Of a stretch of 64,000 bases of DNA, positions 1,980 to 61,282 are shown one piece after another. The translations under genes and the position numbers were made by a program. Position 1 is the stretch's first letter. Each line of letters starts with the position of its first letter. The notes beneath the pieces were generated by a model. It was not told the DNA's origin. It made no database searches and worked only from the letters and a program-made list of their open reading frames with translations. Source of the DNA: Pelagomonas calceolata (lineage: Eukaryota; Sar; Pelagophyceae; Pelagomonadales; Pelagomonadaceae); contig CAKKNE010000002.1 in assembly GCA_918797485.1 (NCBI GenBank), forward strand, positions 2,942,501 to 3,006,500. The letters are read 5' to 3'.

Positions 1980-2004
1980 GCCTAGCGTCATGTAAGACAC
2001 TAGC
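1980..2004 (+). promoter_or_regulatory. CTAG quasi-palindrome, candidate promoter element
   Basis: Reads GCCTAGCG, TCATG, TAAGACACTAGC in the plus direction. It lies in the divergent spacer between the membrane protein (start 1785) and the NIPSNAP gene (ATG 2186), about 180 bp before the latter, and points toward it. It belongs to the recurring family described in the findings. Its function is inferred. Confidence 0.55.
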
Positions 2005-2082
2005 ATACAGCCAGCCTCAGCTGCAGTCTTGCGTGTCGTGGTGCAAAAGCCGTCGTGGAGGCTCTCTCTCCTGTATTTGCAC

Positions 2083-2160
2083 GGCAGCATAGTGCAGCAC
2101 AACTTGCTGCCACTGCTCTGCACTCTTAGTCGGCAGCATTGCAGCAAAATTTGCTGCCAC
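2083..2160. repeat. Two tandem hairpin repeats
   Basis: Two successive units, about 2083-2113 and 2132-2160, each begin GGCAGCAT, contain TGCAGCA and end TTGCTGCCAC. GGCAGCA at the start pairs with TGCTGCC at the end, so each can fold into a hairpin. They lie between the CTAG element and the NIPSNAP ATG, probably in its 5' leader. Confidence 0.6.
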
Positions 2161-2185
2161 TCAGTCACTGCACCACTCACAACCG

Positions 2186-2896
2186 ATGCTCCTCCGCCGC
2201 ACGACCGCCGCCGCGGCGCGACGCATTTCACAAAGACGCCACCTCGGCTACGTCGAATTGGAACGGGACGTCGTCGCTCCACAACATTTAGCAGAGTACC
2301 GCGCCATGCTCGCGGCGCACGCTCCCCAACGTAAAAGACTCGACGAGGGCTACCTGGGCAGTTTTGGGGTGGACGTCGGCCGCGCGTCGAGCGTCTACCA
2401 CCTGTCCGTGTTTGAGGACTACGACCAGCGGGACGCGCGCGAGGCGACGGAGGGGCTGCGCTTCTTCCATCAGGGCGTCCAGAGTTTGGAGTCCTCCGTC
2501 TTCAAGGAGGCCTCCGCCACATTGAACGAGGCGGGACTCCCGGGTCTACAAGATGGCCTCGACGCCGTGCAAGGCTGCGCGTTCGAGCTGCGGACGTACG
2601 AATTGCAATTAGGCTACGACACGGTCCCGAACTTTCTGGAAATTTATTCGGGTGGTTTGAAAGATAAAATGGAGCACGACGACTCCGGCGAGTCGCGGCT
2701 CATCTCCCTGTTACACAGCGAGGCGGGCGTCGCGCCGCTGAACACGGTCATAGAACTATGGCGCCACGAGAGCGCGCAGGGCGCGCAGCGGTCGCGCCTG
2801 GCGTCGCGCAAGGCGACGTCGTGGCGCCGGGCCGTCAACCACATCGCCGAGCTCTCGACGCGCTTCGAGACGCAGCTGCTCCGGCCCATCTTTTGA
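2186..2896 (+). CDS. NIPSNAP family protein, probably mitochondrial
   Basis: A 236-residue protein with an Arg/Ala-rich, acid-poor N-terminus (MLLRRTTAAAARRISQRR) typical of a mitochondrial presequence. Two related halves follow: YVELERDVVAP near residue 22 and ELRTYELQLG near residue 131. The latter matches the NIPSNAP signature ELRTYxLxxG. Conserved patterns include the tail motif HIAELSTRFETQLLRPIF. NIPSNAP proteins are dimeric alpha-beta barrel proteins of mitochondria linked to mitophagy signalling in animals; the role in algae is not established. The stop is 42 bp from the convergent stop of the glycosyltransferase gene. Confidence 0.85.
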   Translation: MLLRRTTAAAARRISQRRHLGYVELERDVVAPQHLAEYRAMLAAHAPQRKRLDEGYLGSFGVDVGRASSVYHLSVFEDYDQRDAREATEGLRFFHQGVQSLESSVFKEASATLNEAGLPGLQDGLDAVQGCAFELRTYELQLGYDTVPNFLEIYSGGLKDKMEHDDSGESRLISLLHSEAGVAPLNTVIELWRHESAQGAQRSRLASRKATSWRRAVNHIAELSTRFETQLLRPIF

Positions 2897-2938
2897 GTGG
2901 CGGTGTCGCGAGATTGATTAACTAACAAAACTGTGTTT

Positions 2939-3907
2939 CTACCGGATAACGGACCGCGCATCGCAGACGCGGAGCCGCCGGAGCAGTGTGACAACTTCCG
3001 CCGCGGCACGGCCGTTGCGGCCAGGGAAGGGATGCGAATAGCCGCCCAGTTCCTCGCGGCCGCGCGGCCATATCGGAGCGAGCGTCGCGGCGTCGATCGA
3101 GGCGTCGCCTCTGATAATTCGGTCGAGGAGCCGGTGTTCCTTCTCGGCGACGTAGTGAAACGATATAACATCGGACGACACCGCGGACGCGTCGGCGGCG
3201 AACGGCTCCGGGGGGTCAATATTTTTCTTTTTGTTCACGAGCCAGTCGTCGATGGCGCCGGTGGCGAGGCGGACCGGGCCATAGACGTGGAAGCGTTCGG
3301 CGCCCGACGCCTCGCGCGTATCTATCGCGACCACGTCAAAGCGCTTCAGACACAACGCGATCTGCGCCTTTTTCGAACTAGGGTCGCACTTCTCGTCTGT
3401 CTCGCCGGCGTCAATCTCGCGCCACCTTTTCACAAACAACTCGACGGCCGCCCGGTTCACCGCGTAGCCCGCGGCTGCCGAGTTGAACAGCCCACAGCAA
3501 GGGCCCCAGAGGCGTAGGCCCGCGTACACGGGCTCCGTCCGCGAGAGACCGCTCAAATAGCAGGCCAGGTTCTCGGCGACAAGAAACGTGTGGTCGTTCA
3601 TCCAGAAGTACCAACTGTGCCGTCCCTCCAGCGCCTGGCGCAGCGCGTACACGTGCGCGCGAAATTGATTAAATCTAGGTGTGTGGTCTTCGATTGGTAG
3701 TTCCCACGCTTGGATCGAGCCCGTCGCGTTTCGTGCGGCCAGCGTTTTGATCGACAGGGCCGCGTCCTCGTGGTCTCGCGCAATCAATACAGCGATGCGC
3801 GCACGTCGTCCGAGCGTGTCAGCGATGGCACCCAGTCGCGTCGCGCGCGGGCCGGGGCCGCGCACCGGGGAGAGGCTCACGATGCACAGCAGACCTTCGA
3901 TGAGCAT
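2939..3907 (-). CDS. C1GALT1-like glycosyltransferase (GT31 family)
   Basis: The ATG at 3907 gives a protein of about 322 residues that starts with a hydrophobic stretch (MLIEGLLCIVSLSP), likely a signal anchor. The order of motifs follows core-1 beta-1,3-galactosyltransferase: a VLIARDH-like strand, the WFM-ADDDTYV region seen here as WYFWMNDHTFLV, then ENLACYLSGL, PVYAGLRL, GYAVNRAAVELF, a Cys-rich acidic stretch, AIDTREASGAERFHVYGP and VISFHYVAEKEH. The DxD-type metal motif is changed to NDH, so catalysis may be altered or lost. A longer frame upstream begins with GTG and is unlikely to be used. Golgi location is inferred from the family. Confidence 0.75.
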   Translation of the reverse strand: MLIEGLLCIVSLSPVRGPGPRATRLGAIADTLGRRARIAVLIARDHEDAALSIKTLAARNATGSIQAWELPIEDHTPRFNQFRAHVYALRQALEGRHSWYFWMNDHTFLVAENLACYLSGLSRTEPVYAGLRLWGPCCGLFNSAAAGYAVNRAAVELFVKRWREIDAGETDEKCDPSSKKAQIALCLKRFDVVAIDTREASGAERFHVYGPVRLATGAIDDWLVNKKKNIDPPEPFAADASAVSSDVISFHYVAEKEHRLLDRIIRGDASIDAATLAPIWPRGREELGGYSHPFPGRNGRAAAEVVTLLRRLRVCDARSVIR

Positions 3908-3920
3908 TCTTTTTGCAGCA

Positions 3921-3978
3921 CTGCGGGTCGTGTGGGCACCGATGCCGCCCTGCGGGTCGTGTGGGCACCGATGCCGCA
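3921..3978. repeat. 29-bp tandem duplication
   Basis: CTGCGGGTCGTGTGGGCACC followed by GATGCCGCC occurs at 3921-3949 and again at 3950-3978 with one difference. It lies just upstream of the glycosyltransferase ATG, probably in its 5' leader. The copies are close enough to suggest recent slippage. Confidence 0.9.
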
Positions 3979-4143
3979 CTGGAAATGAATTGCTCTCTCT
4001 GGGTGCGGGAGAGCACTGCGAAGTGGCAGCTCGCACGGATGCTGGGTTGAGTCCAACTGGTTCTTAGGCTACAGCTACGTGTCGAAAGCGCTGGTTTGCA
4101 TCATTTTAGACGCATGGCCAAGTGCGGCGCTGGCTGGCTCTTT

Positions 4144-4166
4144 CTAGTGTCTTACTGGACACTAGC
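4144..4166 (-). promoter_or_regulatory. CTAG quasi-palindrome, candidate promoter element
   Basis: On the minus strand it reads GCTAGTGTCCAG then TAAGACACTAG. It sits in the divergent spacer, about 237 bp before the glycosyltransferase ATG (minus) and 160 bp before the small ORF ATG at 4326 (plus). Confidence 0.55.
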
Positions 4167-4325
4167 CGCCACTTTACGCTTGCGTCGGCCCCGAGCCGTT
4201 TGCGTGCAGTTTGGATCGTGCCTACACTGCGCGACCATTACAGCTCGCACTCTACGGCCGGCGCGCCGCGTCAAATTTAAGAGAGGAAATTTTGACCTCG
4301 GAGTCCAGGTCAATTGACTCGTGTT

Positions 4326-4610
4326 ATGGGCCGGAACAAGTGGCACAGATCGCTTACTAAAGCGGAGAGGAAGCGAGCGAAAGAGGGAACAACGCTCTTC
4401 CATTCAAATAATAAGGGGGAGGAGACAGAGCAACGTGGTGAATCAGACGTAAGCAACAGTCACTGTGAAGTTGTCAATGACGGCCTTGTCCGGGCCGGGA
4501 CAGTCCGGCGGCGCCGCAGTCACAGCCAGACGTCTAATAATTCCTGGGTCCACGCGGTCGGTTTCGTCATACTCGCGGCGATCGTCATCTCGTGGGCGCT
4601 CGGGTACTAA
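4326..4610 (+). CDS. Small tail-anchored membrane protein candidate (94 aa)
   Basis: ATG at 4326, TAA at 4608-4610. The N-terminal half is very basic (MGRNKWHRSLTKAERKRAKE), the middle is acidic and Ser-rich, and the C-terminus is one hydrophobic helix (HAVGFVILAAIVISWALGY) ending at the stop, as in tail-anchored ER proteins such as the RAMP4 group; I cannot assign it to one. The stop is one base before the ATG of the sulfotransferase-like gene at 4612, so both may lie on one mRNA. A CTAG element 160 bp upstream supports a promoter for this ORF. It could instead be a long regulatory upstream ORF. Confidence 0.45.
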   Translation: MGRNKWHRSLTKAERKRAKEGTTLFHSNNKGEETEQRGESDVSNSHCEVVNDGLVRAGTVRRRRSHSQTSNNSWVHAVGFVILAAIVISWALGY

Positions 4611-4611
4611 A

Positions 4612-5394
4612 ATGTACGTTGCGGCGATCACAGCGTTCCTCGGCGTCGCCGCCGGCGCGCCGCTGCCGACGACCTGGCCGCCTCCACACAACACGTCGAC
4701 GCAGTGCGTCCGCATGCTCGCGAAGCACAAGCTCGATTGGCTGTTGGAGCCCTTCACCTGTACAAAAGCTCAGAAGACGTCCAATGCACACATCGTGCTC
4801 GGGACGGGCCTCGGTGGCACGGGAACGAGATCAGTAGCGACCGCCGTCGACAAGTTGGGATATCCCGCGTGCCACTCGTTCCTCTACGTCCTGCGGCTGC
4901 TCCAGATGAGCAAACCGCACGACCTCACGGCCTTCCGCGGCGGCGCGTCGTATTTCGATACGCCGATGGGCTACATCTTCCCACGGCTCCTGTGCTCGTT
5001 CCCGAAGGCGAAGATCGTCCACACGACGCGACGCGACTACCACCGGGGCTACGACGGCTCCTCGCGCAAATGCCGGTCAAAGCGCGAGTACCGCCTCGAG
5101 AGTGACCTCGCGCGGTGCATCGAGTACGGCTCGACGTGCCCGACGCGCGAGGAGGCGAGGACTGCGTTCGCCAATAACGAGCGGGCCGTGCTGTCCGTGC
5201 CCAAGTCGCGCCGCCACATCATGAACATCAGCGACCTGAGCAGCATTCATGCCGGGCCGCTAGCAGAATTCCTCGGAAAGGAGTGGCGCTGGGGCAATCC
5301 GGACAAACCGATTCCCCACAAAGCCGTCTACTACGCGTCCCGGGCGTGCCTCGGTGGGAATCATCCGAGGCATTGGGTGCCGCGAGTGCACTAA
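4612..5394 (+). CDS. Sulfotransferase-like protein, secretory pathway
   Basis: A 260-residue protein starting MYVAAITAFLGVAAGAPLP, a clear signal peptide. The segment IVLGTGLGGTGTRSVATAVDKLG matches the 5'-phosphosulfate loop of sulfotransferases, followed by CHSF, FDTPMGYIFPRLLCSFPKAK and IVHTTRRDYHRG, where the Arg pair fits the 3'-phosphate binding strand. It most resembles the single-domain sulfotransferase group found in many algae. The substrate is unknown. The C-terminus is rich in Lys, Arg and His. The stop is only 12 bp from the convergent stop of the next gene. Confidence 0.65.
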   Translation: MYVAAITAFLGVAAGAPLPTTWPPPHNTSTQCVRMLAKHKLDWLLEPFTCTKAQKTSNAHIVLGTGLGGTGTRSVATAVDKLGYPACHSFLYVLRLLQMSKPHDLTAFRGGASYFDTPMGYIFPRLLCSFPKAKIVHTTRRDYHRGYDGSSRKCRSKREYRLESDLARCIEYGSTCPTREEARTAFANNERAVLSVPKSRRHIMNISDLSSIHAGPLAEFLGKEWRWGNPDKPIPHKAVYYASRACLGGNHPRHWVPRVH

Positions 5395-5406
5395 GGAATA
5401 AGGGTT

Positions 5407-7581
5407 TTACGCGCTCCCCGGCGGCGGCGGCGCCTGGCGGGCGGCGAGCGCGTCTTGCGCCTGTTGTAAGAGGTTCTCCATGTTCACCGTGTCCGGGTGC
5501 GCGCTGCCGAGGACCTGCAGCGCGATGTCGCGGATCTCCCCGAGCGTCGCCGTGACCTCACTGAGTTCGTCGAGCGTGGCGCCTTCGAAATCGAGCGCCC
5601 GCGCGTAATCCAACTGCGCCCGGAGCATGCTTTCGTTCGTCCCGGGAGGCGGGTCGCCGTCCGCGCCAAGCGGCGCTGCGCTACTCCCGGGGTTCTGCGC
5701 CTGGGTGGCCCGCAATGACGACAACGACGTGGCAGCGCTGTACGTCGCCGTCGACGTCGCGGTCGCTTGACCCGTTGAAATGCGCCTGTTCTCCTCAAGC
5801 AAGTCCGTCGCAGTCGGGGGCGCCGGAGAGGGTTCGACACCAGTATTGAACGACGAGGGCCGCATCGCCAGGCGGGGGTCGTGCGCCGGCCCGGCGAGGG
5901 TCTCCGCCGCGAGCACCGCCGGCGGCCCGAGCGCGCGCCAGGCCTCGCGCCAGCCCGGCGGGTGCTCACTATCGTCCTCCGCGGCGGCTTGCGCGGCGAC
6001 CTCCTCCGCCCTGGGTCGCAGCCCGGGCCACTGGTTGAAGACCTGGCGCGGCTGCGGCTCGGAGTCGTCCGAGAACAGGAACTCGCGCGGGTGACCGGGT
6101 CTAGCTTCGACGTCCAAATTCGCCGGGCGCGTCGCGGGCAGGAGCTGGACGGGGTCCGGGTAGCGGTGGAGCCACTCGGAGTGCTGGTTCTTCTTTTCGG
6201 CTTTCTTGGCCGGCTTGACTGAAGTAACGATACCGCGCGCGCGCTCGTCGCTCAGCGACTGGCGCCAGTGCGTCGGCGGCGGCGGCGGCGGCGGCTGCGG
6301 GCGGTAGCCCGGCGGCGTGCGGTTCGGCGTCGGGTCGTAGCCGAAGGGCGTCACGAAGTTCGACAGCACCGGGTCGACGCGGCACGTGAGAGCCCCGGGG
6401 CCCAGCTCAAAGGTCCACAATTCAAAGGGCGGCTCGCGGTGGCAGTCCTGGGCGCCCCGCGTGTCGTAGCGCCCGCGGAACCGCGCCTCGAGCCGCAACA
6501 ATCCGGAGCCGTTGAAGATCCAGCGGTCCGGCGCTAATAAAGGATGGGCGCAGGCCTCGAGCGGCGGCACGCGCAGCACCCAGCGGTCTTTGGGGGGAGG
6601 CGGCGGCGGCGGCGGCGGCGGCCCCTTTGTTATAGCGGGCGGCCGCGGCGGCGGGCCGCCGCCCGGCCGCGGCGGCGGCGCGCGTCTTCTTCTACACGAC
6701 GACGGGAACTCGAGAGTCGCAAAGTGCCTCACGCTTCTGGGAGGGATCTCCACCACGTCTAACCTTTGATCTCCGACCAACCCGCGGCTCTCGTACCTCC
6801 TCAGCAACACGGACCTTTCTAAGGGGTTCGCGAAGGCCAATTTCAAGCTATCGTCGCGCCCCCGATCGACCTTGAAATGGACCCTCCTAAAACCAGCAGC
6901 GCACTCGCGAAACAAGTGAATCTTGCCGCCCATGACGCCCGCCGCCGCTGCCTTCAACGCTTCCCTTTGTCTCTGCAACTGCGCCTCCCGCGCGGCCCGA
7001 GTCGCGGCCACAAAAGCAGCTAACGCGCCTCCTTTGGGATGCTGCCTGACGAGCTCCTCACAGCTCTCATACACATCGGGGAAGGACCGCTCGATGGCCT
7101 GGCGCACGTTCATGCGGCCGCGCTCCTCATCATAACGAAGACACGCGGCGGCAAAAATGCGTTTCTTCGTCTCCGGCGCGGCTCTCCTAGCGATCCTGGC
7201 GAGCCACCTGGCCGAAGCGGCTCGGACCGCTTGCAGCTTGTCTCCTTTTAATGTTTTCGTTAAAAATTCTTCCGCGTCGACGCCCAAACAGCGCCCCATG
7301 GCCTCGACCGCTTCGAGCCGCCACCGCGCCCTTTTCGAGACGCTCCGCGCGGCCCAGCGCTTCTCAAAACATCGTTTGATGGCCGCGGGGAGTCGCGAGT
7401 GCGCGTTGAATTGTTTGGAGACAGCCCGTAACGCTCGCAGATCGTTGGGGTCCGCGAACCTTCCGATACCATCTAACGCGCGATGCGGGCCGGCGAGGGG
7501 GCTCTCGCCGGGCGTACTCCGGCGTCCCTCTTTCGGCTCGACGTCCATCTTTTCGCTTCCCGACGAGTTGGGGGTCTCCAT
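5407..7581 (-). CDS. Proline-rich protein with F-box-like N-terminus and TPR-like tail
   Basis: A 724-residue protein with ATG at 7581. Residues about 30-65 (LDGIGRFADPNDLRALRAVSKQF) look like an F-box-type helix set, and residues 70-200 are helical and Arg/Ala-rich. Two poly-proline blocks of 10 and 7 Pro lie near the middle, beside Gly/Pro/Arg-rich sequence. The last 60 residues, with ALQVLGSAHPDTVNMENLLQQA, resemble the end of a kinesin-light-chain type TPR. I know no named family with this architecture. A protein-interaction or ubiquitin-ligase adaptor role is inference. A CTAG element lies 210 bp upstream, pointing toward it. Confidence 0.7.
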   Translation of the reverse strand: METPNSSGSEKMDVEPKEGRRSTPGESPLAGPHRALDGIGRFADPNDLRALRAVSKQFNAHSRLPAAIKRCFEKRWAARSVSKRARWRLEAVEAMGRCLGVDAEEFLTKTLKGDKLQAVRAASARWLARIARRAAPETKKRIFAAACLRYDEERGRMNVRQAIERSFPDVYESCEELVRQHPKGGALAAFVAATRAAREAQLQRQREALKAAAAGVMGGKIHLFRECAAGFRRVHFKVDRGRDDSLKLAFANPLERSVLLRRYESRGLVGDQRLDVVEIPPRSVRHFATLEFPSSCRRRRAPPPRPGGGPPPRPPAITKGPPPPPPPPPPKDRWVLRVPPLEACAHPLLAPDRWIFNGSGLLRLEARFRGRYDTRGAQDCHREPPFELWTFELGPGALTCRVDPVLSNFVTPFGYDPTPNRTPPGYRPQPPPPPPPTHWRQSLSDERARGIVTSVKPAKKAEKKNQHSEWLHRYPDPVQLLPATRPANLDVEARPGHPREFLFSDDSEPQPRQVFNQWPGLRPRAEEVAAQAAAEDDSEHPPGWREAWRALGPPAVLAAETLAGPAHDPRLAMRPSSFNTGVEPSPAPPTATDLLEENRRISTGQATATSTATYSAATSLSSLRATQAQNPGSSAAPLGADGDPPPGTNESMLRAQLDYARALDFEGATLDELSEVTATLGEIRDIALQVLGSAHPDTVNMENLLQQAQDALAARQAPPPPGSA

Positions 7582-7790
7582 CTGTGTCCCTTCTCGGGCC
7601 GCGGGCCCGGGGCGGGGCTGTGGGTATTCGGCCCGCTCTGCTGTTCGGGGCTGCCCCGCGACGGGGCTGCCCGCGCAGGCTTGCCGCTGGCGGAACGCGG
7701 CGGGGGCTATGGATCTGTCGCTACCTCAGCGAACAGCGCGCTCGGTGGGCGCGGGCGAAGCGGCTTGCTGGCCAGCTTCATGCTTGGATT

Positions 7791-7813
7791 GCTAGTGTCT
7801 TACCGCCGCTAGC
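7791..7813 (-). promoter_or_regulatory. CTAG quasi-palindrome, candidate promoter element
   Basis: On the minus strand: GCTAGCGGCGG then TAAGACACTAGC. The neighbours are tandem on the minus strand (7886-9166 ends before it, 5407-7581 starts after it), so this copy can only serve the gene starting at 7581. Its orientation matches. Confidence 0.65.
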
Positions 7814-7885
7814 AAAATGCGGGACGCGGCGACTTGGCGCACTGGTGACGCCATCGCCGCGATAAGAAGAAACCTAAAAAACAAC

Positions 7886-9166: not shown

Positions 9167-9436
9167 CGTGCTTGGTTTGGGGCTGCCCTTGGCTGCTGGC
9201 GGCTGCCTTTACGCTGTTGCCCCGTCTGCGGAGGGTCCGTACGGGTCGAACGCCGAGGGATGCGCAGCAGGGCTGCCGCCTGTGGCTCCGCGCGGCGTCT
9301 TAATGGCGAGAGGCTGCACAGCGCCTGGATGCCAAAAGCTCTCCCGCGCCGTGGACTCCCGGGCTTCCTGTGACCCCTGCACTCCATGGACGGGCGGGGG
9401 ACGCGTAATACGAGTTCTAGAGTCGGTCCATTTCTT

Positions 9437-9460
9437 GCTAGTATGTTACAGGCCGCTAGC
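9437..9460 (-). promoter_or_regulatory. CTAG quasi-palindrome, variant copy
   Basis: On the minus strand: GCTAGCGGCCTG then TAACATACTAGC. It sits in a divergent spacer, 271 bp before the unknown minus gene and 173 bp before the RPB12 ATG on plus. Confidence 0.5.
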
Positions 9461-15810: not shown

Positions 15811-15830
15811 CTAGAGCTCGTATACGCTAG
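15811..15830 (-). promoter_or_regulatory. Diverged CTAG-bounded element
   Basis: On the minus strand: CTAGCGTATACGAGCTCTAG. The borders, the length and the position (183 bp before the oxygenase ATG at 15628) match the recurring element, but the TAAGACA core is lost. Low-confidence member. Confidence 0.3.
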
Positions 15831-17261: not shown

Positions 17262-17284
17262 GCTAGCGGCATAAAGACACTAGC
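17262..17284 (+). promoter_or_regulatory. CTAG quasi-palindrome, candidate promoter element
   Basis: Reads GCTAGCGGCA then TAAAGACACTAGC, identical over its full 23 bp to the copy at 30284. It lies in a divergent spacer, 148 bp before the SUMF2-like ATG (plus) and 165 bp before the Rab ATG (minus). Confidence 0.6.
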
Positions 17285-24065: not shown

Positions 24066-24089
24066 CCTAGCGGCATGTGAGGCACTAGC
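24066..24089 (+). promoter_or_regulatory. CTAG quasi-palindrome, variant copy
   Basis: Reads CCTAGCGGCATG then TGAGGCACTAGC. Divergent spacer, 200 bp before the ketohexokinase ATG (plus) and 165 bp before the VPS9/ankyrin ATG (minus). Confidence 0.5.
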
Positions 24090-28026: not shown

Positions 28027-29046
28027 TCACTCGTCGGGCCGGAACGGCCGCGCCCAGACCGCCTCCTGATCATCGATGCGCTTCGCGAGGATCACCTCGA
28101 GGCACGTCCTGTCTTCGGAGAGGGCCCAGGTGCACTCGCTCGCGACGACGGGGCCCTCCAGGGTCCTCGCGACGACCGCGGCACCCTCCAGCGACACCGA
28201 TAGTTTTTGTGAACCGAACTCGACTTTCATGGCTTTCGCCGACGGCGCCGCCCGCGGCAACTTCACATCAACCTCCATGCGCTCGGGCGTCTCGCGCCAT
28301 AGCCACCTTTCTGGAGTCTCCCCATCAATACTGCCGCCGGTCGGCCAGTACGTCTGTCGTTCGGGCTCCTTGTCGTCCGGCACGACGTCGTCCAACAGGT
28401 CTTCTTCCATGTCGTCGAGCAGCGCCTTCTCCTCGACCGTCTCCTCGCGCGCGTCGCCCCTTTCTCTCCTTTCGGCGGCAAGCTCGAGCTCCCTCCTTAG
28501 TACATCGTCGTCGTCGTCGTCGACCCGATCCGCGCCGAACACCTCGACGCCCGCCGCCCAGTCCCTTACATTTAACAGCTCGAGCTCGAACACGACGTGC
28601 GCTTGCGCGGGAACGTGCGGCTCCGCGCCGTCGCCGAAGGCCCAGTCCGGCCCCGCCAGGATCTCCACCCGATCCTGGGGAGCCATCGTCGCCACGCAGG
28701 CGTCCCAGGCCCGCGTCGCTTCGCCGGACCCGCCGCCGAGCGTGAATTCTAACGTGCTGTTCGGCTGCAGCGCCCCTATCCTCTCGCCGCGGCACCACCA
28801 GTTGCCCTGCTTCTCGGCGAGCCAGGCCGTCCAGCGCACGCTGCACTCGGCGCCCGGCGGCGGCTTCGGGCCTCCTCGAGGTGGCGTAAGCCGTCGAACG
28901 CAGCACGCGCCCTTGCCGTTCGAGAGGTCTTCCCAGCCTTGCGGTGCGGCCCTTGGTGCCGTGATGCGTTTTCTGGGAGTGTGGTGGAAGGCCTGGGCCG
29001 CCTGCGTTGCGCAGAGGAGCGCTGCTGCTGCTGCTCTTGCTCTCAT
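28027..29046 (-). CDS. Plastid-targeted FKBP-like and CS-domain protein
   Basis: A 339-residue protein. MRARAAAAALLCATQAAQAFHHTP is a signal peptide followed at once by Phe, then a basic Ser/Thr/Pro/Arg region, the classic heterokont plastid signal. Residues about 55-160 look like an FKBP-type fold (VRWTAWLAEKQGNWW, TLEFTLGGG, RAWDACVATMAPQDRVEILAGPDWAFGDG, HVVFELELLNV), with several FKBP catalytic residues not conserved. After an acidic linker, about 240-330 is a CS/p23-like domain (WLWRETPERMEVDVKLP, VEFGSQKLSVSLEG, WALSEDRTCLEVILAK). A chaperone or cochaperone role in the plastid is inferred. Confidence 0.7.
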   Translation of the reverse strand: MRARAAAAALLCATQAAQAFHHTPRKRITAPRAAPQGWEDLSNGKGACCVRRLTPPRGGPKPPPGAECSVRWTAWLAEKQGNWWCRGERIGALQPNSTLEFTLGGGSGEATRAWDACVATMAPQDRVEILAGPDWAFGDGAEPHVPAQAHVVFELELLNVRDWAAGVEVFGADRVDDDDDDVLRRELELAAERRERGDAREETVEEKALLDDMEEDLLDDVVPDDKEPERQTYWPTGGSIDGETPERWLWRETPERMEVDVKLPRAAPSAKAMKVEFGSQKLSVSLEGAAVVARTLEGPVVASECTWALSEDRTCLEVILAKRIDDQEAVWARPFRPDE

Positions 29047-30283: not shown

Positions 30284-30306
30284 GCTAGCGGCATAAAGAC
30301 ACTAGC
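30284..30306 (+). promoter_or_regulatory. CTAG quasi-palindrome, candidate promoter element
   Basis: Identical over 23 bp to the copy at 17262. It lies between two tandem plus-strand genes (eS31 stop 30169, SPT1 ATG 30457), so it can only serve the SPT1 gene. Its orientation fits and it is 151 bp from the ATG. Confidence 0.65.
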
Positions 30307-30456: not shown

Positions 30457-32100
30457 ATGCGGCTGTGTTTAGTTTTGCTAGCCGCCGCGGCCGCGGCCAA
30501 GCGCCAGCAACCACCACCGCCCGCGGACGACCGCCAGCTCTTCCGCGAGGCGCTACAGGAGCGAGATTTCAAAACCGCACTAAAAACAGCACCAGCGGCG
30601 TACGCCACCTGGTGGCAACAATTACTCAAAGACGACCCGTACCACGTCTTTATTGAAACATTACTGATTGCCTTCCTCCTGTACTTGTTGTACGGCACGC
30701 GCCGCGCGAAAAACTCCCAAAAAAAGGAGCAAGCATTGACCGACAGAGAAATCGACGACCTCGTCAGCGACTGGGCCCCCGCGCCGCTCGTAGGAACGGC
30801 GAGCGCGCCGCCGCCGGCCATGCGCGTCGTGACGCCCGCGGCACAACCGGGCCGCGTGCACGTGCGCAAGGACACGAACACCGCGAAGTGGTCGTCTGGC
30901 GACCCCCTCACCAAGCCGACGAAGCAGGGCGCCCTGAACTGCGGCGCCTTCGACTTCCTGGCCATGGGGTCCTCGGTCAAGGTGCGCGAGGCGGCCCAGG
31001 CAGCTTTAACGAAGTACGGCTGCGGGAGCTGCGGCCCGCGCGGCTTCTACGGCTCGATCGACGTCCACGAGCAGCTGGAAGCCAGGGTCGCGTCGTTCTC
31101 GCACACGAAGCAGGCCATCGCGTTTTCCGATGCCGCTTCTTGTTGCACGTCGACCGTCGCCGCGTTCGCGAAAAGAGGCGACCTATTAGTGGTCGATGAT
31201 GGGATCTCGGAACCTTTAAGGACGGGCTGCGTGCTATCGAGAGCAAGAGTCGTCGCGTACAAGCACAACGACGCTAATGATTTAAAAAGAGTTATGGAGG
31301 GGATTAGACAGGCGGACCGGCGGAAGGGCCGCGCCCCAACCGCTCAAAGAAGGTTCGTGGTCTGCGAGGCCGTGTCGCGAGACCACGGCGGCGACGTCGC
31401 GCCGCTGAAGGAGATTTTGGCACTGAAGGACGAGTTCGGCTACCGTTTGATTCTGGACGAGTCGCTCTCCTGGGGCGTCTTGGGCGCGACGGGCCGGGGC
31501 CTCAAGGAGGCTTGTGGCATCGAGGATCCTACTTCCGTTGAGATCACGTGCGTGGACCTCGCGCCGGCTTTAGGTTCGAACGGAGGCTTGTGTATTGGCA
31601 CGGACGAAGTGGTAGCCCACCAGCGGTTGAGTGGAGCGGGCTACTGCTTCTCGGCGGCGGCGCCGCCCTTCTATTCGGCCGCCGCTTTGGCGGCGCTGGA
31701 CATCTTAGATTCTAGTGAGGGGCAAAAACGACTCTCAAAACTGCGTAGCAACGCGTCTTTACTGAGAAAGGAGCTGGCCAAGGCCTTCGACGGCGACGCT
31801 TTGTTGAGTGTCGTCGGTACAAATATAGAGGTCGACCTGGAGGATGATCTGGACGTGCCCTTCGTGTTGCTGGAAGGTGCGTCATCAAAGACCCTCGACG
31901 CCATCATCGACGCGGCCTACGCCAGTGGCTACGCCGTGTCCCTCGCGACGCCGCCGGCCGACGACGCGGCGCCGGCCCTGCCGCCCCTCAAAAAGAAGCC
32001 GCTCGCGCTCCGCGTGACGACGACGGCCGACCACGGCGCGGCGGACGTGAGGGGGCTCGTGGCGGCGCTGGCGAAGGCGTCGGCGAAGGCGACCGCCTAG
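30457..32100 (+). CDS. Serine palmitoyltransferase subunit 1 (LCB1/SPTLC1)
   Basis: The ATG at 30457 gives 547 residues. An N-terminal membrane helix (YHVFIETLLIAFLLYLLYGT) precedes the alpha-oxoamine synthase fold: GALNCGAFDFLAMG, YGCGSCGPRGFYGSIDVHEQLE, DESLSWGVLGATGRG. Where the catalytic subunit has the PLP-binding Lys, this protein has DLAPALGSNGGLCIG, so it is the non-catalytic LCB1 type. The Cys in GCGSCGPRG matches the position mutated in human sensory neuropathy. Role: with LCB2, the first step of sphingolipid synthesis in the ER. An earlier frame start uses TTG. Confidence 0.92.
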   Translation: MRLCLVLLAAAAAAKRQQPPPPADDRQLFREALQERDFKTALKTAPAAYATWWQQLLKDDPYHVFIETLLIAFLLYLLYGTRRAKNSQKKEQALTDREIDDLVSDWAPAPLVGTASAPPPAMRVVTPAAQPGRVHVRKDTNTAKWSSGDPLTKPTKQGALNCGAFDFLAMGSSVKVREAAQAALTKYGCGSCGPRGFYGSIDVHEQLEARVASFSHTKQAIAFSDAASCCTSTVAAFAKRGDLLVVDDGISEPLRTGCVLSRARVVAYKHNDANDLKRVMEGIRQADRRKGRAPTAQRRFVVCEAVSRDHGGDVAPLKEILALKDEFGYRLILDESLSWGVLGATGRGLKEACGIEDPTSVEITCVDLAPALGSNGGLCIGTDEVVAHQRLSGAGYCFSAAAPPFYSAAALAALDILDSSEGQKRLSKLRSNASLLRKELAKAFDGDALLSVVGTNIEVDLEDDLDVPFVLLEGASSKTLDAIIDAAYASGYAVSLATPPADDAAPALPPLKKKPLALRVTTTADHGAADVRGLVAALAKASAKATA

Positions 32101-38044: not shown

Positions 38045-38067
38045 GCTAGCGGTCGTAAGACACTAGC
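38045..38067 (+). promoter_or_regulatory. CTAG quasi-palindrome, candidate promoter element
   Basis: Reads GCTAGCGGTCG then TAAGACACTAGC, a consensus copy. Divergent spacer, 160 bp before the exostosin ATG (plus) and 57 bp before the MYND gene ATG (minus). Confidence 0.6.
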
Positions 38068-40471: not shown

Positions 40472-40493
40472 CCTAGTGCATCAACTTACTAGC
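40472..40493 (-). promoter_or_regulatory. CTAG quasi-palindrome, variant copy
   Basis: On the minus strand: GCTAGTAAGTTG then ATGCACTAGG. It lies between tandem minus-strand genes (rhodanese ends at 40538, ESF2 starts at 40300), so it can only serve ESF2, 172 bp away, although its core is diverged. Confidence 0.45.
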
Positions 40494-41308: not shown

Positions 41309-41333
41309 GCTAGCGGTCGGTAAGACTCTAGGC
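41309..41333 (+). promoter_or_regulatory. CTAG quasi-palindrome, candidate promoter element
   Basis: Reads GCTAGCGGTCGG then TAAGACTCTAGGC. Divergent spacer upstream of the vasohibin gene (plus), and 196 bp before the rhodanese ATG (minus). Confidence 0.55.
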
Positions 41334-44753: not shown

Positions 44754-44775
44754 GCTAGTGTCTTACACCGCTAGC
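44754..44775 (-). promoter_or_regulatory. CTAG quasi-palindrome, candidate promoter element
   Basis: On the minus strand: GCTAGCGGTG then TAAGACACTAGC. Divergent spacer, 190 bp before the FMO ATG (minus) and 121 bp before the DUF1295 ATG (plus). Confidence 0.6.
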
Positions 44776-49621: not shown

Positions 49622-49646
49622 GCCTAGTGTGTCGACCACGCTAGCC
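49622..49646 (-). promoter_or_regulatory. CTAG quasi-palindrome, variant copy
   Basis: On the minus strand: GGCTAGCGTGG then TCGACACACTAGGC. Divergent spacer, 161 bp before the Cys-rich secreted gene (minus) and 259 bp before the THUMP gene (plus). Confidence 0.45.
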
Positions 49647-49904: not shown

Positions 49905-50849
49905 ATGGCCTCATTATTCGGCAAACTAAAACGCGCCGTCGCGGCCGACGACGAAGAGAAAGCCACCGAAGCACCGCCCAAAAAGCAGAAGACCGAAACA
50001 AAACCGAAACAAACAGGTGGCCAGGGCCGGCGCCTCGGCGACCTGCGGAAGCTGCGGGGCAAGGCGGCGATCCTCTTCACGTGCCCGACGCGCATGGAGC
50101 GCAAGGCGTGCCACGAGGCCTGGGAGTTGCTATCTGAAAAAGTCGATGAGGAACAGGAATCATCACAAAAGAAATCGCTGGCGGCCTCATTAAAAGCCGA
50201 GGCCCGGGCGTCCAAGGCGTCGAAGGTCGCGACCTACGATCTAGGGAGCCAGGGCGTCGGCTGGGCGACCGTCGACGGCGTGGATGTGGTCGAGCTCGCG
50301 ACGCGGCTCGTGCGCGACGCGTCCGAGGACCCGGCGTCGCTCGCGGCGGGGTCGCGGATGGTCATCCGCATCATGCCGATGCAGTCTGTTACGTTTGCTT
50401 CACTGAGTGATCTCGTCGAGGGCGCCGCGCCACTCATCTCCCAGTCATTCGGCGGGCTGCGGACGAGTCCCCACAGAGCGATCGTCGAGGCGTTGGAATC
50501 TATGAAGACGCGGGACGAGGAGCTACTGAAGACCGCGCGGGAAAAGGCCGCGGCGGAGTCTGGGACAGAGCCGGGCTCGGCGTCTTCAGTCAAGTACGCG
50601 GTGCGGCTCCAGCGCCGGTCCGCCGCGGGCTTTCCCAAGGACGCGGCCGTGCGCGCGCTGGCGGCCCTCGTGCCGCCCCAGCACACCGTTAGTTTAGGTG
50701 CGCCGGAGGTGACGATCCTCGTGGAGGTGTTCAAGTCGCTCTGCGGCGTCGCCGTCGTGCCGGGCTACCACGCGATGCACGACTTTAACCTGCACGCGGC
50801 GGCGGGGAAGCAGGTCGTGCCTCCGCCGCCGAAGAGTAAGAAGAAGTAG
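49905..50849 (+). CDS. TAN1/THUMPD1-like THUMP-domain tRNA acetylation factor
   Basis: A 314-residue protein. The basic N-terminus with KKQKTETKPK is a likely nuclear signal. AAILFTCPTRMERKACHEAWELLSE matches the start of THUMPD1 (ITCNMNERKCVEEAYSLL). A THUMP domain of about residues 150-285 ends PEVTILVEVFKSLCGVAVVPGYHAMHDFNLHA, the diagnostic C-terminus of yeast Tan1 and THUMPD1. Role: tRNA-binding adaptor for Kre33/NAT10, which makes N4-acetylcytidine at position 12 of tRNA-Ser and tRNA-Leu. Confidence 0.88.
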   Translation: MASLFGKLKRAVAADDEEKATEAPPKKQKTETKPKQTGGQGRRLGDLRKLRGKAAILFTCPTRMERKACHEAWELLSEKVDEEQESSQKKSLAASLKAEARASKASKVATYDLGSQGVGWATVDGVDVVELATRLVRDASEDPASLAAGSRMVIRIMPMQSVTFASLSDLVEGAAPLISQSFGGLRTSPHRAIVEALESMKTRDEELLKTAREKAAAESGTEPGSASSVKYAVRLQRRSAAGFPKDAAVRALAALVPPQHTVSLGAPEVTILVEVFKSLCGVAVVPGYHAMHDFNLHAAAGKQVVPPPPKSKKK

Positions 50850-50926: not shown

Positions 50927-50949
50927 GCTAGCGTCTGTAAGACACTAGC
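50927..50949 (+). promoter_or_regulatory. CTAG quasi-palindrome, candidate promoter element
   Basis: Reads GCTAGCGTCTG then TAAGACACTAGC. It sits between tandem plus-strand genes (THUMP stop 50849, IFT25 ATG 51090), so it can only serve IFT25. Orientation agrees, 141 bp from the ATG. Confidence 0.65.
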
Positions 50950-51069: not shown

Positions 51070-51093
51070 ATGGGCAGCCTCCCTAGACGATGA
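51070..51093 (+). promoter_or_regulatory. Upstream ORF whose stop overlaps the IFT25 start
   Basis: ATG at 51070 encodes Met-Gly-Ser-Leu-Pro-Arg-Arg and ends with TGA at 51091-51093, overlapping the main ATG at 51090 (ATGA). Same geometry as the exostosin upstream ORF. Confidence 0.5.
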
Positions 51094-52079
51094 ACCGCGA
51101 GGAGAAGGGCCAGACGCGCGTCGAGCTGACGCTCGACTCGAACCACCAATTGCCGGTCCCGCACGGCCTCAGCTTCCCCCTCGACCAGCGCGACATCGAG
51201 CTCAAAGAGCTGAGACGATTGTGCGCGACGGCGTCCGGCGAACAGAAGGCCCACCTCGAAGCCGAGATCCGAAAGCTAGAAAAGGGCTCGGAGTCGCCGA
51301 CACACCGTAACGGGCCCAAAAAGAACGCCGCGCGGCCCTGGTCCGCGCGGCCCGTGTCCAGACAACAGGGTTCGCATGTGATGAAAACAATTCCGGAGTC
51401 GCGGCAGCATGTCAGGCCGTTGTCGTCGAAGATGCGCGGGGTGTCTGGCATATCATCGTTGCTAAACGGTGAAGCCGATCTACAGGCGCTGCATCGCTCT
51501 AGGCCGCGGCACAGCCGCGGCGATTTGTCGAGTGCCGCATCGGAAGCGTCGGAAGAATCCGTGGACCTCTTCGCGGACCATCCTTCAGCGGACGAGGTCA
51601 CGGAGCTCGATATCAATCGATTAACCGCGACGTGCTTCGATTCCAGACACCCGCCGCGGCATTGTGTTGATAGATCTCCAGAAACGTTCTTTTCAGCTTC
51701 TGGGATGTGTCCCCAAATTTTGTGCGTCAAATTCAGGCGATCCGTACATTTACGTAGAGTCTCGGTCGTCTGCAGCGGCGTCCGGTCCATGCGCCTGAGG
51801 TGGAAGGCGGGCGACGCGTGGCGGTCGCAGATGCAGACGCTGTCGCGGGGCGCGCCCCACCAGGCCACGACGGAGTTCGCCTTCGATCCTAGCAGAGAGG
51901 GCCGCAGCGAAACAAATGAGGTGCTCGTCGAGATTGTGGCCGCGTTCGCCGCGTTTTGTCGGGTGCGCCATTTGGGCTTCGTCGAGGCGTCGGGGCGAAA
52001 GTCGCGGCCCTCTTTGGACTATGACGAACCATCCCCGGTCCACGGGCCGAAGTCGCCTCCTAGATTATGTCCCCCTTGA
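51090..52079 (+). CDS. IFT25/HSPB11-like intraflagellar transport protein with N-terminal extension
   Basis: A 329-residue protein. The N-terminal 170 residues are charged and low in structure, with one helix (QRDIELKELRRLCATASGEQKAHLEAEIRKLEK). The C-terminal 140 residues match IFT25: LTATCFDSRHPPRHCVDRSPETFFSASGMCPQILCVKFRRSVHLRRVSVV, then EVLVEIVAAFAAFCRVRHLGFVEASG, a galactose-binding-like jelly roll. IFT25 pairs with IFT27 in the IFT-B complex. Presence implies a flagellate stage. The long N-terminal extension is unlike animal IFT25, which is about 145 residues. Convergent stop 33 bp away. Confidence 0.82.
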   Translation: MNREEKGQTRVELTLDSNHQLPVPHGLSFPLDQRDIELKELRRLCATASGEQKAHLEAEIRKLEKGSESPTHRNGPKKNAARPWSARPVSRQQGSHVMKTIPESRQHVRPLSSKMRGVSGISSLLNGEADLQALHRSRPRHSRGDLSSAASEASEESVDLFADHPSADEVTELDINRLTATCFDSRHPPRHCVDRSPETFFSASGMCPQILCVKFRRSVHLRRVSVVCSGVRSMRLRWKAGDAWRSQMQTLSRGAPHQATTEFAFDPSREGRSETNEVLVEIVAAFAAFCRVRHLGFVEASGRKSRPSLDYDEPSPVHGPKSPPRLCPP

Positions 52080-52112
52080 TTGTAACATGTTAACACGAAT
52101 CGATTGTTAGAC

Positions 52113-53791: not shown

Positions 53792-53815
53792 GCTAGCGGT
53801 CAGTAAGACACTAGG
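53792..53815 (+). promoter_or_regulatory. CTAG quasi-palindrome, candidate promoter element
   Basis: Reads GCTAGCGGTCAG then TAAGACACTAGG. Divergent spacer, 240 bp before the BRK1 ATG (plus) and 210 bp before the CBS-PP2C ATG (minus). Confidence 0.6.
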
Positions 53816-54435: not shown

Positions 54436-54505
54436 GTGTGGTTGGCCCCAGGCGTGTGTAATGTGAATGTCTACTGATTTTCAGTTGACCGGAACCGTTC
54501 GTGGC

Positions 54506-54529
54506 GCTAGTGTGTCTGCGAACACTAGG
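54506..54529. promoter_or_regulatory. CTAG-bounded palindrome, variant
   Basis: Reads GCTAGTGTGTCT then GCGAACACTAGG, a nearly symmetric form with GTGT and ACAC arms but no TAAG core. It lies between tandem plus genes, 198 bp before the IQ/WW gene ATG at 54727. Confidence 0.4.
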
Positions 54530-54726
54530 TGTCGAAACTTCGACGAAAGCGGGCCGGACAAAAAAGACGCTGTGTGGGAATCGAACGCCTCATTGCTGCC
54601 GTTCGAAGCTGAGTTACTCCTCGTACCTAGACCCCTCGCGCGCGCCAGCGTTCGGGTCCCTTGGGCGCCGTAGGGCACCAAACAGAGACGCCGGCCGCCC
54701 CGCGGCGGCGCCGAGCAAAGGGTAGC

Positions 54727-57700: not shown

Positions 57701-58139
57701 TACGAGACCGCCGACGCCGCCGCCCCAAGAATCGACGGATGTGAGCGCCGAGGCGTCCGACGCGTCGGGACCCGTCAGTGTGCCGAAACGCGTGGCTTCG
57801 GCAGGGACGCTGGAAAGCGCGTTGAGCTTTGAAGATTTGATGGAGAAGCAAGGGCCGTTTCGGGCGGCTTCACCAGTGCCGCCTCCACAACAGGAGGAGA
57901 AGCCGCCGGACTGGCGCGAGTGCTACGACGCAAATTATAAACGGACGTACTTTTTTAACGTGGCTTCTGGTGAAAGCCGGTGGCGGGCGCCCGACGATAG
58001 GTACGTGCCCTACGAGAAACCTATCGAAGGGCCGGTCCGGGCGCAGTCTGTGGATCCTGCAGCTTTGAAGATGGCGGCGGAACGGGTCAAACGGTCGCTG
58101 TCCGAGAGCGCGATGCCCTTCGTCGCCGAACACGGGTAA
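54727..58139 (+). CDS. Large IQ-motif / WW-domain protein, two exons
   Basis: Exon 1 54727-55449, intron 55450-55556, exon 2 55557-58139, phase 0, giving 1101 residues (join FTC-ACSAGS). The N-terminal half is helical without a named family. A Pro/Ser region near 560-600 precedes an IQ motif near residue 627 (VQSHCRGFLLRKRLARLVEE), which should bind calmodulin. A strongly acidic segment follows, then a conserved-looking helical block (VEEVAAFLGGRVGLHSDDARLKPLAKRIVDQKILWLV). A WW domain lies near residues 1022-1055 (DWRECYDANYKRTYFFNVASGESRWRAP). IQ plus WW is seen in ciliary and cytoskeletal proteins; the role is inferred. Confidence 0.72.
55446..55556 (+). mobile_element. Introner element forming the intron of the IQ/WW gene
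   Basis: 111 bp bounded by perfect 13-bp terminal inverted repeats, CTGTGTGGAAATC and GATTTCCACACAG. The left repeat supplies GT at 55450 and the right one supplies the terminal CAG, so removal restores the reading frame in phase 0. The flanking 8 bp (GCATTTAC, GCGTGTTC) match at five positions, a possible worn target duplication. It shares the internal CGATGGCGTGGAGG with the element at 59328. Confidence 0.8.
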
Positions 58140-58172
58140 TGGTTTTGCGATCAATTAGTCGATGGGGAGGCC

Positions 58173-61100
58173 CTAACCGGGTAAGTGAAAGCTGCGGGGC
58201 TTTTTCGCCACCACCTTGGGTGCCGCCCGGGGATCGATGCCCACGCGCGATATCTCTCTTTTCCGGGCCTTGGCTGCCGCGGTCGCCTTGGTTGCGGCGG
58301 CTTGCTGCCGCGGCGTCTGCGCGCCCCCGGCCGGCGGACGAGGAGGTGGCGGCGTCGGTGCGCGGCGGTGATACACGCGCCCGAGAGAGCGCTTCTCTCC
58401 CGCGACCTTAGGAATCACGCGCCCGTCGGGTCCGACCGGGTTGAGGCGGCAGCAGTGCTCCAGGCCGCGCCTCTTGATCTCGGCGTTGACCGCCTTCGCG
58501 GCCTCCTCGTCGTCGTGGAACGTCCCCAAATAGCCCGCGCCGCCCTGGAGCCGCGCCTGCCAGTAGCCTCGAGCCGCCACCCAAGAGACCCCATGGAAGC
58601 GTGACGGTCGATGAGGATGTCGCGGCTTTCCTTCTGGCTTTCTCGTTGATTTCGTCACGCCCTCCTTGCGCCAGGGCGGCGAGCGGCCGCCCTTCCTAGG
58701 ATGAATGGGCGGCCGCGCGTCCCACTCCTCCTCCTCCTCGTCCTCCGAGCTCTCGGCTTTGACCCGCGCGGGTCGGACGGGCTTCTCGGCCTTGTGCGCC
58801 CGCAGCTTCCTTCTAAAATCGGCCGGCGTGTCGTACGCGCCGCGGCCGACGCCTCGGGCTTTCATCGCCTCCTTCAGCTGCTTGGTATTCATTCCAGAAA
58901 ACTCGTCGCCCTTCTCCTCGTCGCCGTCGTCCTTGGCGTCGCGCTCAAGCGCCAGCACCCGCGGAACCGCGCCCTTGCCACCCCCGAGGCCCGCTTCCTC
59001 GACGAGCGTTTCGAGCCCATTGGCCGTGCGCGGGTCGATGCCGACGCGCGCGATCTCGTCGGCGCGCTGCTTCGCGTAGGCCGCAGCTTTGGCCGCCGCG
59101 GCCTGCTGGCGGGGCGTCGCCGCGGGCGGCGGGCGGGGCGGCGCGGGTTCCGTTTTGACCCGCGTCCTGGGATCGCGCGGCGCCGGTTCCTCAGAAAGAG
59201 GCGCCTTCGTCAAATCAATAATCAGCTCGAACTTCTCCTCCCGCCCGGGCCCGGTCAGGTTCAGGAGCTCGGCGTCGCCGTCGTCATACCTAACGACGTG
59301 CTTGAACCCGTCGAAGGCCGTCACGACCTGTGTGGAAATCAAAATTTTACGGCGCGCTCGTGCTGAATCGCCGCATCGTCCTCCACGCCATCGACGCGAC
59401 GCCTGCTCGATGGCGTGGCGATGCCGGTGCCTCGCCGCTCGAGCGAGCCAGCACCGCCGCGTCATCGCCGAGAAATGACTTGTACACAGGTCGCGACGCC
59501 CTCGTACCACTTCTCGTCGTCCCGCCACCAGACCTTGATGCGCTGATTTAACAACTCGTTGCCGATGGGCCGCACGGCGTGCCCGTTCCCGTCGAGGTTG
59601 CACCCGACTCGAAAGTCGAGCGGCCCCCGCTCCGCGATCGCTTTCTTCGTGCGCTTTTTTGTGAGAGGGAACCGCCCGAACTTGCCCAAATCTTCAATTT
59701 TTCTAGGACCCTTCTCGCCCCGTTGATGTCTACCGTAGCAGATATCACAAAGGGTATAAGGGCCGTCGGGCCCCGGCTTGGCTCTTCCGGTAGTCCCCAC
59801 CCCGCTCCCGCACCAGTTGCAGCGCCAGGTCTTGGGGTCGATCTTGGGCGGCGGCTGGTACGGCACGTACGTCGGATCGTTCCGCCTCCGCTCCTTCTCG
59901 CGCTCCCAAGGTGTTAATTTCGCCGCGTTCGCTTCTGCGGACCCTAGACACTTCTTCTCATGATTACTTCGAGCGGGTGGATGTCTTGTACTAAAAGCGC
60001 CGCACTTCCGACACGTTAACAACGGCCTCGTATCTGGACCCATTTCTTCTTCAGAGGACTCCTCCTCGCGGAGCTGCTCCCTCCGTTGATGGCGCTTCCG
60101 CCGCAGATGGTCCACATCGACACCATTCCCTTCGCGCTCCATGGACACGAAGGCCATGACCGCCTTTTGAATCGACTCGTATTCCCGACCCCGCGGGTCC
60201 GCGTAGTAATACGAATGGCCGTTCGGCTTGGACTTCAGCCAGTTCTGCTTGCGCCAGGCGCGCCAGCCTTCTAAGTTTGGAGGGCCGAGGCCGTACCTTT
60301 CATGGGCGAGCTTGGCCTTGAACGCCACAAAAGCTAGCCTTTGATCCTTCGCCTCGTCGTCGTCGTCGTCGTCGTCCTCAGCTTCCTCGGCGGCCCGCAC
60401 GGCGCGCTCGGCGACGACGTCGCGCTTGTGGTGCTCGCGCTTCGACGGCGGCGCGCGCGGCCGTACGGGCGCCGCGTCGTCGTCGGACGGGGCCTCGGCC
60501 GCGCGGCGCTTCGGCGCGGGCGCGGGCTTGCGCGCCTTCGGCGGCGGCGCGCGCTTCGCTGCCGTCACGACGAGCTCCCAGCGCCTCTGTTCAAGGTCCT
60601 CGTCCCAGTCTTCGCCGTCCTCATACCGAATTTCGTGCAGCCTCCCGCCGTCGAAGGCGTTGACATGACCAACGAACCAGGCGCGGTCGTGGGGCCACCA
60701 CACTCTGATTTTGTGACCAATGAGTCCAGCGCCGTGCGGCGCATTGGCGGGCCAGGCGTGCTTCTCTTCTTGTGAAGGATGCTTCATCTGGGAGCGCTTC
60801 GGCGGGTCGCGCCTCCTTTTGGGAGGCGGCTTCTCCCTCGATACCGGCGGGCCGCGGCGCTTTGGTGTGGGCATGACCTCGTCGTCACTAAGCTCGTCGT
60901 CGTCGGGGCGCGGCGGCGGCTCATCTATACAAATCTCGGAGATGATGCTCACGTCGTCTCCATCTTCGTTGTCGACGAGGACGAGGCGGACGCGCTCCTG
61001 CGTTGGGTGGGGCGCGCGTTTGCTCTCCGCTCTACCTCTCGATCCCCCTAGGGAGTGTGCGCGCCGCCGAGGAGGCGCGGCCGCGTTCGCGCAACATCTT

Positions 61101-61185
61101 CTCCCAGGTGGGCTGCCCAGGTGCGGTCGCTGTGAAGGGACAGGGCTGCCCGCATTGTGTGGACGCGGGCGCAGACCTCGGCCAT
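58173..61185 (-). CDS. Tudor / GATA zinc-finger / AP2-like nuclear protein, three exons
   Basis: Exons 61185-61096, 60997-59486 and 59327-58173 give 918 residues. The first intron (60998-61095) is a GT-AG join inferred from frame (HLGED-ERVRLVLVDNEDG); the second is an introner. Tudor-like segments lie near 126-175 (IRVWWPHDRAWFVGHVNAFDG) and 514-565 (IKVWWRDDEKWYEGVATC-VVTAFDG, split by the intron). Near 360 is a CRKC...HEKKC finger, near 275-325 an MBD/TAM-like stretch, near 420-455 a GATA finger (CNWCGSG...LCDICYGRH), and near 776-830 an AP2/ERF-like domain (RFHGVSWVAARGYWQARL, LGTFHDDEEAAKAVN). A chromatin-binding transcription factor is likely. Confidence 0.75.
59328..59489 (-). mobile_element. 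Introner element forming intron 2 of the Tudor/GATA/AP2 gene
   Basis: 162 bp on the minus strand, with ends CTGTGTACAAGTCA and TGATTTCCACACAG (11 of 14 inverted match). It is flanked by GTCGCGAC and GTCGTGAC, an 8-bp target duplication with one change. Splicing GT at 59485 to AG at 59328 joins codons in phase 0 inside a Tudor-like domain. Inside is an inverted repeat of CGATGGCGTGG, also found in the element at 55446. Confidence 0.8.
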
Positions 61186-61258
61186 CGTGCTGGGGTCGAC
61201 CTGTGTCCCCGCGCTCCCCGGGAACTGCGAGAAACAAGCGAAATTGCGGAGAGCACTT

Positions 61259-61282
61259 CCTAGTGCGTTACATGCCGCTAGC
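61259..61282 (-). promoter_or_regulatory. CTAG quasi-palindrome, candidate promoter element
   Basis: On the minus strand: GCTAGCGGCATG then TAACGCACTAGG. It lies between divergent starts at 61185 (minus) and 61368 (plus), 74 and 86 bp away, which suggests very short 5' leaders here. Confidence 0.5.

Follow-up and report, generated by a model that had tools for sequence, protein, structure and literature searches.

Many gene starts of Pelagomonas calceolata, an apparently very abundant ocean alga, are accompanied by a gapped CTAG quasi-palindrome of approximately 24 bp, here termed the CTAG dyad. The element was recognized in a stretch of 64,000 nucleotides (contig CAKKNE010000002.1, positions 2,942,501 to 3,006,500 of the forward strand; "the window") and was followed into further parts of the genome. 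We propose, with a probability of roughly 0.8, that the dyad is an orientation-independent promoter site for a putative sequence-specific factor, which is common to both genes of divergent pairs. It probably marks the putative binding site of a protein that helps to switch on genes on one or both sides. The proposal builds on the copy number of the dyad, its promoter position, the lack of an orientation preference and the presence of a single, central copy between divergent genes.

Sequence, form and copy number of the CTAG dyad

The genome searched comprises 32,445,274 bases in 8 contigs. Positional analyses were carried out on a 314-kb sample consisting of the window, C1:1.0-1.2 Mb and C4:1.00-1.05 Mb, in which approximately 67% of the bases are coding. 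Genes were defined as open reading frames (ORFs) called by a coding model for which 89 long ORFs served as the training set, ignoring introns; the ATG of each gene model is a guess, which may be wrong in single cases. The GC content of the window is 63%. For P. calceolata, passages of the genome paper give 63% GC, 16,667 genes with an intron density of 0.45 per gene, as well as six nuclear contigs with a total of 32.4 Mb, one plastid and one mitochondrial contig (PMC9481584).

A weight matrix comprising both arms and a spacer of free length was seeded from the window copies, of which it is not independent, and refined on the 314-kb sample. The resulting consensus reads [GC]CTAGCG[GT]-N(mostly 2-4)-[TA]AAGACACTAG[CG], and the column information sums to approximately 26 bits. 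At a score of 14 the matrix retrieves 87 copies, compared to a mean of 2.5 in two order-3 Markov simulations. A score of 8 yielded 122 copies versus 33 in the simulations; therefore, the cut-off of 14 was chosen, and the weaker 35 copies were dropped. Extrapolation from the 87 copies suggests roughly 9,000 copies genome-wide.

In the whole genome, the right-hand string TAAGACACTAGC occurs 1,845 times (918 + 927), compared to a single match for its reversed control, and the strict dyad CTAGYG-N8-10-CRCTAG is found 3,707 times, compared to 41 times for the reversed pattern. The exact pattern of the preliminary description, which was drawn up from the sequence of the window alone, matches there 3 times with 0 expected. 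The existence of the motif, far beyond chance, is confirmed. Between CTAGYG and CRCTAG, gaps of N11-20 amount to 535 versus 112 in the reversed control, and gaps of N0-7 to 161 versus 98. Dyads thus are far fewer at gaps other than N8-10, and spacing therefore is a part of the signal, albeit not an absolute one. In the 61 copies with a score over 25, spacer lengths are 4 bp (40 copies), 3 bp (12), 2 bp (6) and other values (3). Among the dyads listed with a gap below 8, gap 6 (CTAGCGGTAAGACACTAG) is frequent, and gap 7 looks rarer.

An A is preferred immediately ahead of the dyad and AA directly behind it, and AT content is approximately 44% within 25 bp of the copies versus 33-37% beyond 100 bp. 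Since the copies number in the thousands, they might be regarded as relics of a dispersed mobile element, or of introner ends, which survived between genes; indeed, P. calceolata intron lengths peak near introner size, according to passages of the genome paper (PMC9481584). However, once the adjoining base on the left and the adjoining two on the right are set aside, no flanking column within 20 bp exceeds 0.21 bits, and therefore the copies are not embedded in a longer shared unit. The promoter position and the near-absence from coding sequence (CDS) described below also argue against such an origin, which we consider highly improbable. IMG/VR viral contigs, among which close relatives of the window genome may be absent, contain no match to GCTAGCGK-N2-4-TAAGACACTAGC, and scans of the window with Rfam (gathering score) and for tRNAs gave no match.

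Position relative to genes

The 87 copies are distributed over divergent (43), tandem (31) and convergent (7) spacers, with 2 located in CDS and 4 at an edge. The preliminary description had placed no copy in a coding region; the intergenic location holds, but two copies, scoring 16.7 and 17.7, fall into ORF-based genes. At 8 loci from a separate 12-mer search outside the training set, the motif was in CDS in 0 of 8 cases. Counted by spacer, 41 of 53 divergent spacers are occupied, compared to 29 of 66 tandem and 6 of 54 convergent ones; among spacers shorter than 600 bp, the figures are 25/34 for divergent and 1/44 for convergent ones (Fisher p 7e-12). The earlier statement that convergent spacers are free of copies applies to all 35 of those below 150 bp, but not to the class as a whole. 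A terminator or other 3' element was also considered and is disfavoured, as short convergent spacers are free of copies (0/35 under 150 bp, against 1/9 at 150-600 bp and 5/10 of the longer ones).

Overall, a copy is found within 500 bp of 96 of the 172 gene starts, which, along with the occupancy of divergent spacers, bears out the assignment of the dyad to gene starts and promoters. In tandem spacers, 25 of the 31 copies are located 62-275 bp from the start. Exactly one copy is present in 71 of the 76 positive spacers (39 divergent, 12+15 tandem, 5 convergent). Such a singular occurrence would also be expected of a boundary or insulator, which separates neighbouring genes without a direct role in initiation. 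Yet, the near-emptiness of convergent spacers under 600 bp and the confined distance to the start in tandem spacers both argue against a boundary, and we regard this explanation as improbable.

Orientation and sharing by divergent gene pairs

The dyad had been thought to point toward its target gene, based on four tandem cases. These constitute a small sample, in which the copy at 30284 is divergent according to the present gene models and the one at 40472 is weak and points away from the nearest start. Among the 31 copies in tandem spacers, 13 are oriented with the gene and 18 against it (p 0.47; 95% interval for "with" 25-61%), the split being 1 with/3 against in the window and 12/15 outside. 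Divergent spacers contain 22 copies oriented toward the nearer and 21 toward the farther gene. Moreover, the distance from motif to ATG (up to 400 bp) has a median of 181 bp for the 50 cases in the same and 183 bp for the 48 cases in the opposite orientation (p 0.42), in agreement with the distances reported earlier. Given 31 tandem cases, a modest orientation bias may exist. The genome scan for distance and orientation that had been suggested, carried out here on 314 kb, revealed the depletion from CDS and short convergent spacers, but no significant relation to orientation, and the difference between the arms provides an internal polarity without pointing at a gene.

The 13:18 split and the equal median distances disfavour any element that needs one strand, be it a directional core promoter or transcription start site (TSS) element, a splice donor or a U1 site. 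The dyad contains a donor-like GTAAGA, and its arms are partly pairable, features that might suit a splice donor or U1 site in the 5' untranslated region (UTR), or an RNA hairpin in that region. With only 13 of 31 tandem copies in sense orientation, a donor or U1 site is difficult to reconcile, although a near-palindromic hairpin could fold either way. Covariation is absent from the 87 copies: the seven pairs comprise 460 pairable cells versus 460.5 after permutation, and the outer pair is pairable in 47/87 copies versus 50.9. The arms vary independently, which speaks against an RNA hairpin. In addition, the upstream-ATG counts outlined below suggest that the motif is located outside the transcript, at least on the right-arm side. 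We deem a role in the 5' UTR, be it as a splice signal or as a hairpin, very unlikely.

Divergent pairs appear to share one dyad. When divergent spacers shorter than 700 bp are considered (28 copies), the mean offset from the centre is 0.111 compared to 0.235 (sd 0.025) under the null, a value matched by 0 of 10,000 draws. Exactly one copy is present in 39 of the 41 positive divergent spacers, and two copies occur in only 1 of 34 short ones (P 0.006 under the assumption that every start carries a separate copy at the tandem rate). The dyad therewith displays the hallmark of a bidirectional promoter element, one central copy per divergent pair, as well as those of a site of the general regulatory factor (GRF) type, namely a long specific motif found at many promoters with no orientation preference.

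Dyad copies in the window

The matrix recovers all 15 main copies of the preliminary description, one of them (40472) weakly, and adds three more, at 54506-54529, 62406-62425 and 63412-63434; a weaker element proposed at 15811 falls below a score of 8. As had been noted, two copies separated by 13 kb, those at 17262 and 30284, share the same 23-bp sequence. The window copies are as follows:

1981-2004, + strand: dyad copy CCTAGCGTCATGTAAGACACTAGC, score 35.0; upstream of + gene 2186-2896
4143-4166, - strand: dyad copy, score 32.4; divergent spacer 3907/4612
7791-7813, - strand: dyad copy, exact match to the earlier consensus, score 35.9; tandem spacer 7581/7886
9437-9460, - strand: dyad copy, score 33.8; divergent spacer 9166/9852
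17262-17284, + strand: dyad copy, identical to 30284, score 34.3; divergent spacer 17096/17433
24066-24089, + strand: dyad copy, score 28.7; divergent spacer 23901/24289
30284-30306, + strand: dyad copy, identical to 17262, score 34.3; divergent, between - gene 28027-29046 and + gene 30457-32100
38045-38067, + strand: dyad copy, exact match to the earlier consensus, score 35.9; divergent spacer 37988/38227
40472-40493, + strand: weak dyad copy, score 16.1; flanked by two low-scoring - ORFs
41309-41332, + strand: dyad copy, score 32.0; divergent spacer 41113/41609
44754-44775, - strand: dyad copy with spacer 2, exact match to the earlier consensus, score 35.2; divergent spacer 44564/44998
49623-49645, - strand: dyad copy, GACACACTAG arm variant, score 25.9; upstream of + gene 49905-50849, in opposite orientation
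50927-50949, + strand: dyad copy, score 35.8; upstream of + ORF 51090-52079 (329 aa), which was dropped by the gene caller
53792-53815, + strand: dyad copy, score 35.7; divergent spacer 53582/54055
54506-54529, - strand: dyad copy, newly found, score 27.3; tandem spacer 54435/55503
61259-61282, - strand: dyad copy, score 30.6; past the last called gene
62406-62425, - strand: short-spacer dyad copy, newly found, score 22.9; past the last called gene
63412-63434, + strand: weak dyad copy, newly found, score 16.6; past the last called gene

A variant of the right arm, in which GACACACTAG replaces AAGACACTAG, is present at 49623-49645, 54506-54529 and 62406-62425, and is also found among the genome-wide matches listed. 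One protein encoded in the window has 17 relatives, among which those of Chrysophaeum taylorii and Aureococcus anophagefferens show 46-47% identity; both of these algae are pelagophytes.

Internal polarity and probable transcription start

The arms of the dyad and its flanks differ, and genes on either side carry it. In the flanks of 72 of the 87 copies, GCAAGC occurs within 80 bp 20 times on the right and 0 times on the left, and the sequence outward of the left arm is T-rich.

As a proxy for the TSS, the extent of the 5' UTR was estimated from the depletion of out-of-frame ATG, with the average over five permuted triplets as the expectation. At 169 starts, ATG is low within approximately 150 bp of the start codon and is back up by 200-250 bp. 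Outward of the motif, in 90 start-motif pairs including any that cross another ORF, ATG was observed 17 times versus 14.2 expected at 0-30 bp, 15 versus 15.6 at 30-60 bp, 4 versus 16.0 at 60-90 bp, 3 versus 8.6 at 90-120 bp and 8 versus 32.0 beyond. Since ATG is depleted from about 60 bp outward, we infer that the TSS lies approximately 60-90 bp outward of the motif.

At 0-125 bp upstream of start codons, the word GGCAGCC is enriched on the sense strand (39 occurrences, compared to 11 on the antisense strand; p 9e-5), and it is also enriched over CDS. As this word is strand-biased, in contrast to the CTAG dyad, it possibly represents a 5'-UTR or downstream core element. A word count in dyad-less promoters yielded GGCAGCC, start-codon words and weaker words, but no second site like the CTAG dyad.

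A proposed model of dyad function

According to the model, a putative sequence-specific protein would bind the dyad as double-stranded DNA. Two protein units would probably occupy the two CTAGYG arms and make extra contacts to TAAGA on one side; the presence of two such arms with a freedom of a few bp suggests either a dimeric protein or one whose two domains are connected flexibly. The site would be located in the middle of the promoter, roughly 60-90 bp upstream of the presumed TSS, and would be active in either orientation, such that two divergent genes would be served by one copy. The protein may, in the manner of general regulatory or architectural promoter factors, open chromatin and support initiation on one or both sides, with a possible effect on expression. 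GRFs contribute to nucleosome-depleted regions (PMC11069190).

Several observations weigh against an orientation-independent promoter site of this kind. The remaining 76 of the 172 starts lack a copy within 500 bp; a copy is carried by 14/29 genes of the top, 37/58 of the middle and 47/89 of the low gene score class, and therefore copy-less starts are not just false genes. Copies are present in six convergent spacers, namely in 1 of 9 at 150-600 bp and in 5 of 10 at 600 bp or more; the long gaps may hide uncalled genes, as at 50927. The reliance on ORF-only gene models without introns is a further limit. Finally, the two sides of the dyad differ with regard to ATG. On the left-arm side, ATG is depleted from the motif on (3 versus 8.4 at 0-30 bp, 4 versus 8.6 at 30-60 bp), whereas the right-arm side shows no depletion near the motif (14 versus 5.8 at 0-30 bp, 25 versus 12.8 at 0-60 bp) but only farther out. 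The left/right difference over 0-60 bp has a post hoc p of 0.0004. The distance to the TSS may differ by side, or flank composition may act as a confounder.

The depletion on the left, together with the central position in divergent spacers, would suit a bidirectional core promoter, in which transcription starts within or at the arms and a long 5' UTR begins with the dyad. This explanation is at odds with the undepleted right-arm side, and in the stramenopile Phytophthora core elements are sense-biased 1.8 to 5.9 fold, according to passages of PMC3599244; we consider it unlikely. The orientation-independent binding site might be taken a step further: one lineage-specific protein on the 24-bp gapped dyad would organize most promoters as a near-universal "master" organizer, and most divergent pairs would depend on one shared site. 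Such a far-reaching role is conceivable, yet rather doubtful.

If the proposal is correct, a single site may co-regulate the two genes of a divergent pair. As a long and easily recognized element, the dyad provides a handle for finding the factor, for better annotation of gene starts and for studying promoter sharing in compact genomes.

Comparison with known promoter elements

As a promoter-proximal site of a putative sequence-specific factor, the dyad resembles the sites of the budding yeast GRFs Reb1, Abf1 and Rap1. Yeast GRF sites differ from it in sequence, and the dyad is set apart by its gapped two-arm form, its approximately 26 bits and its presence at 96/172 sampled starts. Animal bidirectional or housekeeping promoters, which are TSS-proximal and often divergent, contain motifs such as ZNF143, NRF1, GABPA, M1BP and DREF. 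To our knowledge, none of these motifs is similar in sequence to the CTAG dyad, which differs from them as a gapped quasi-palindrome with a spacer of mostly 2-4 bp. The CGCG element (PMC6192621) is also comparable, being a motif of TSS-proximal, often divergent promoters.

Within the stramenopiles, the oomycete elements INR, FPR and DPEP are similar in that they are recurrent promoter elements (passages of PMC3599244). However, these sense-biased elements peak within 50-100 nt of the start codon, compared to approximately 180 bp for the unbiased CTAG dyad, and the strings given in these passages, YCAYTYY, MWTTTNC and SAASMMS, are unlike it. In the open-licence literature, as covered by titles, abstract beginnings and main-text passages, no description of the dyad or of pelagophyte promoters was found, and in the main text of the P. 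calceolata genome paper, "motif", "intergenic" and "palindrom" occur 0 times (PMC9481584). Among the papers listed for motif words, TAAGACACTAGC itself occurs in none, and its reverse complement occurs once each in PMC3709272 and PMC11765003, the titles and abstract beginnings of which are unrelated. A widely used promoter-proximal site is of a known kind, but the sequence of the CTAG dyad, its gapped form and its reach over 96 of 172 starts appear to be new.

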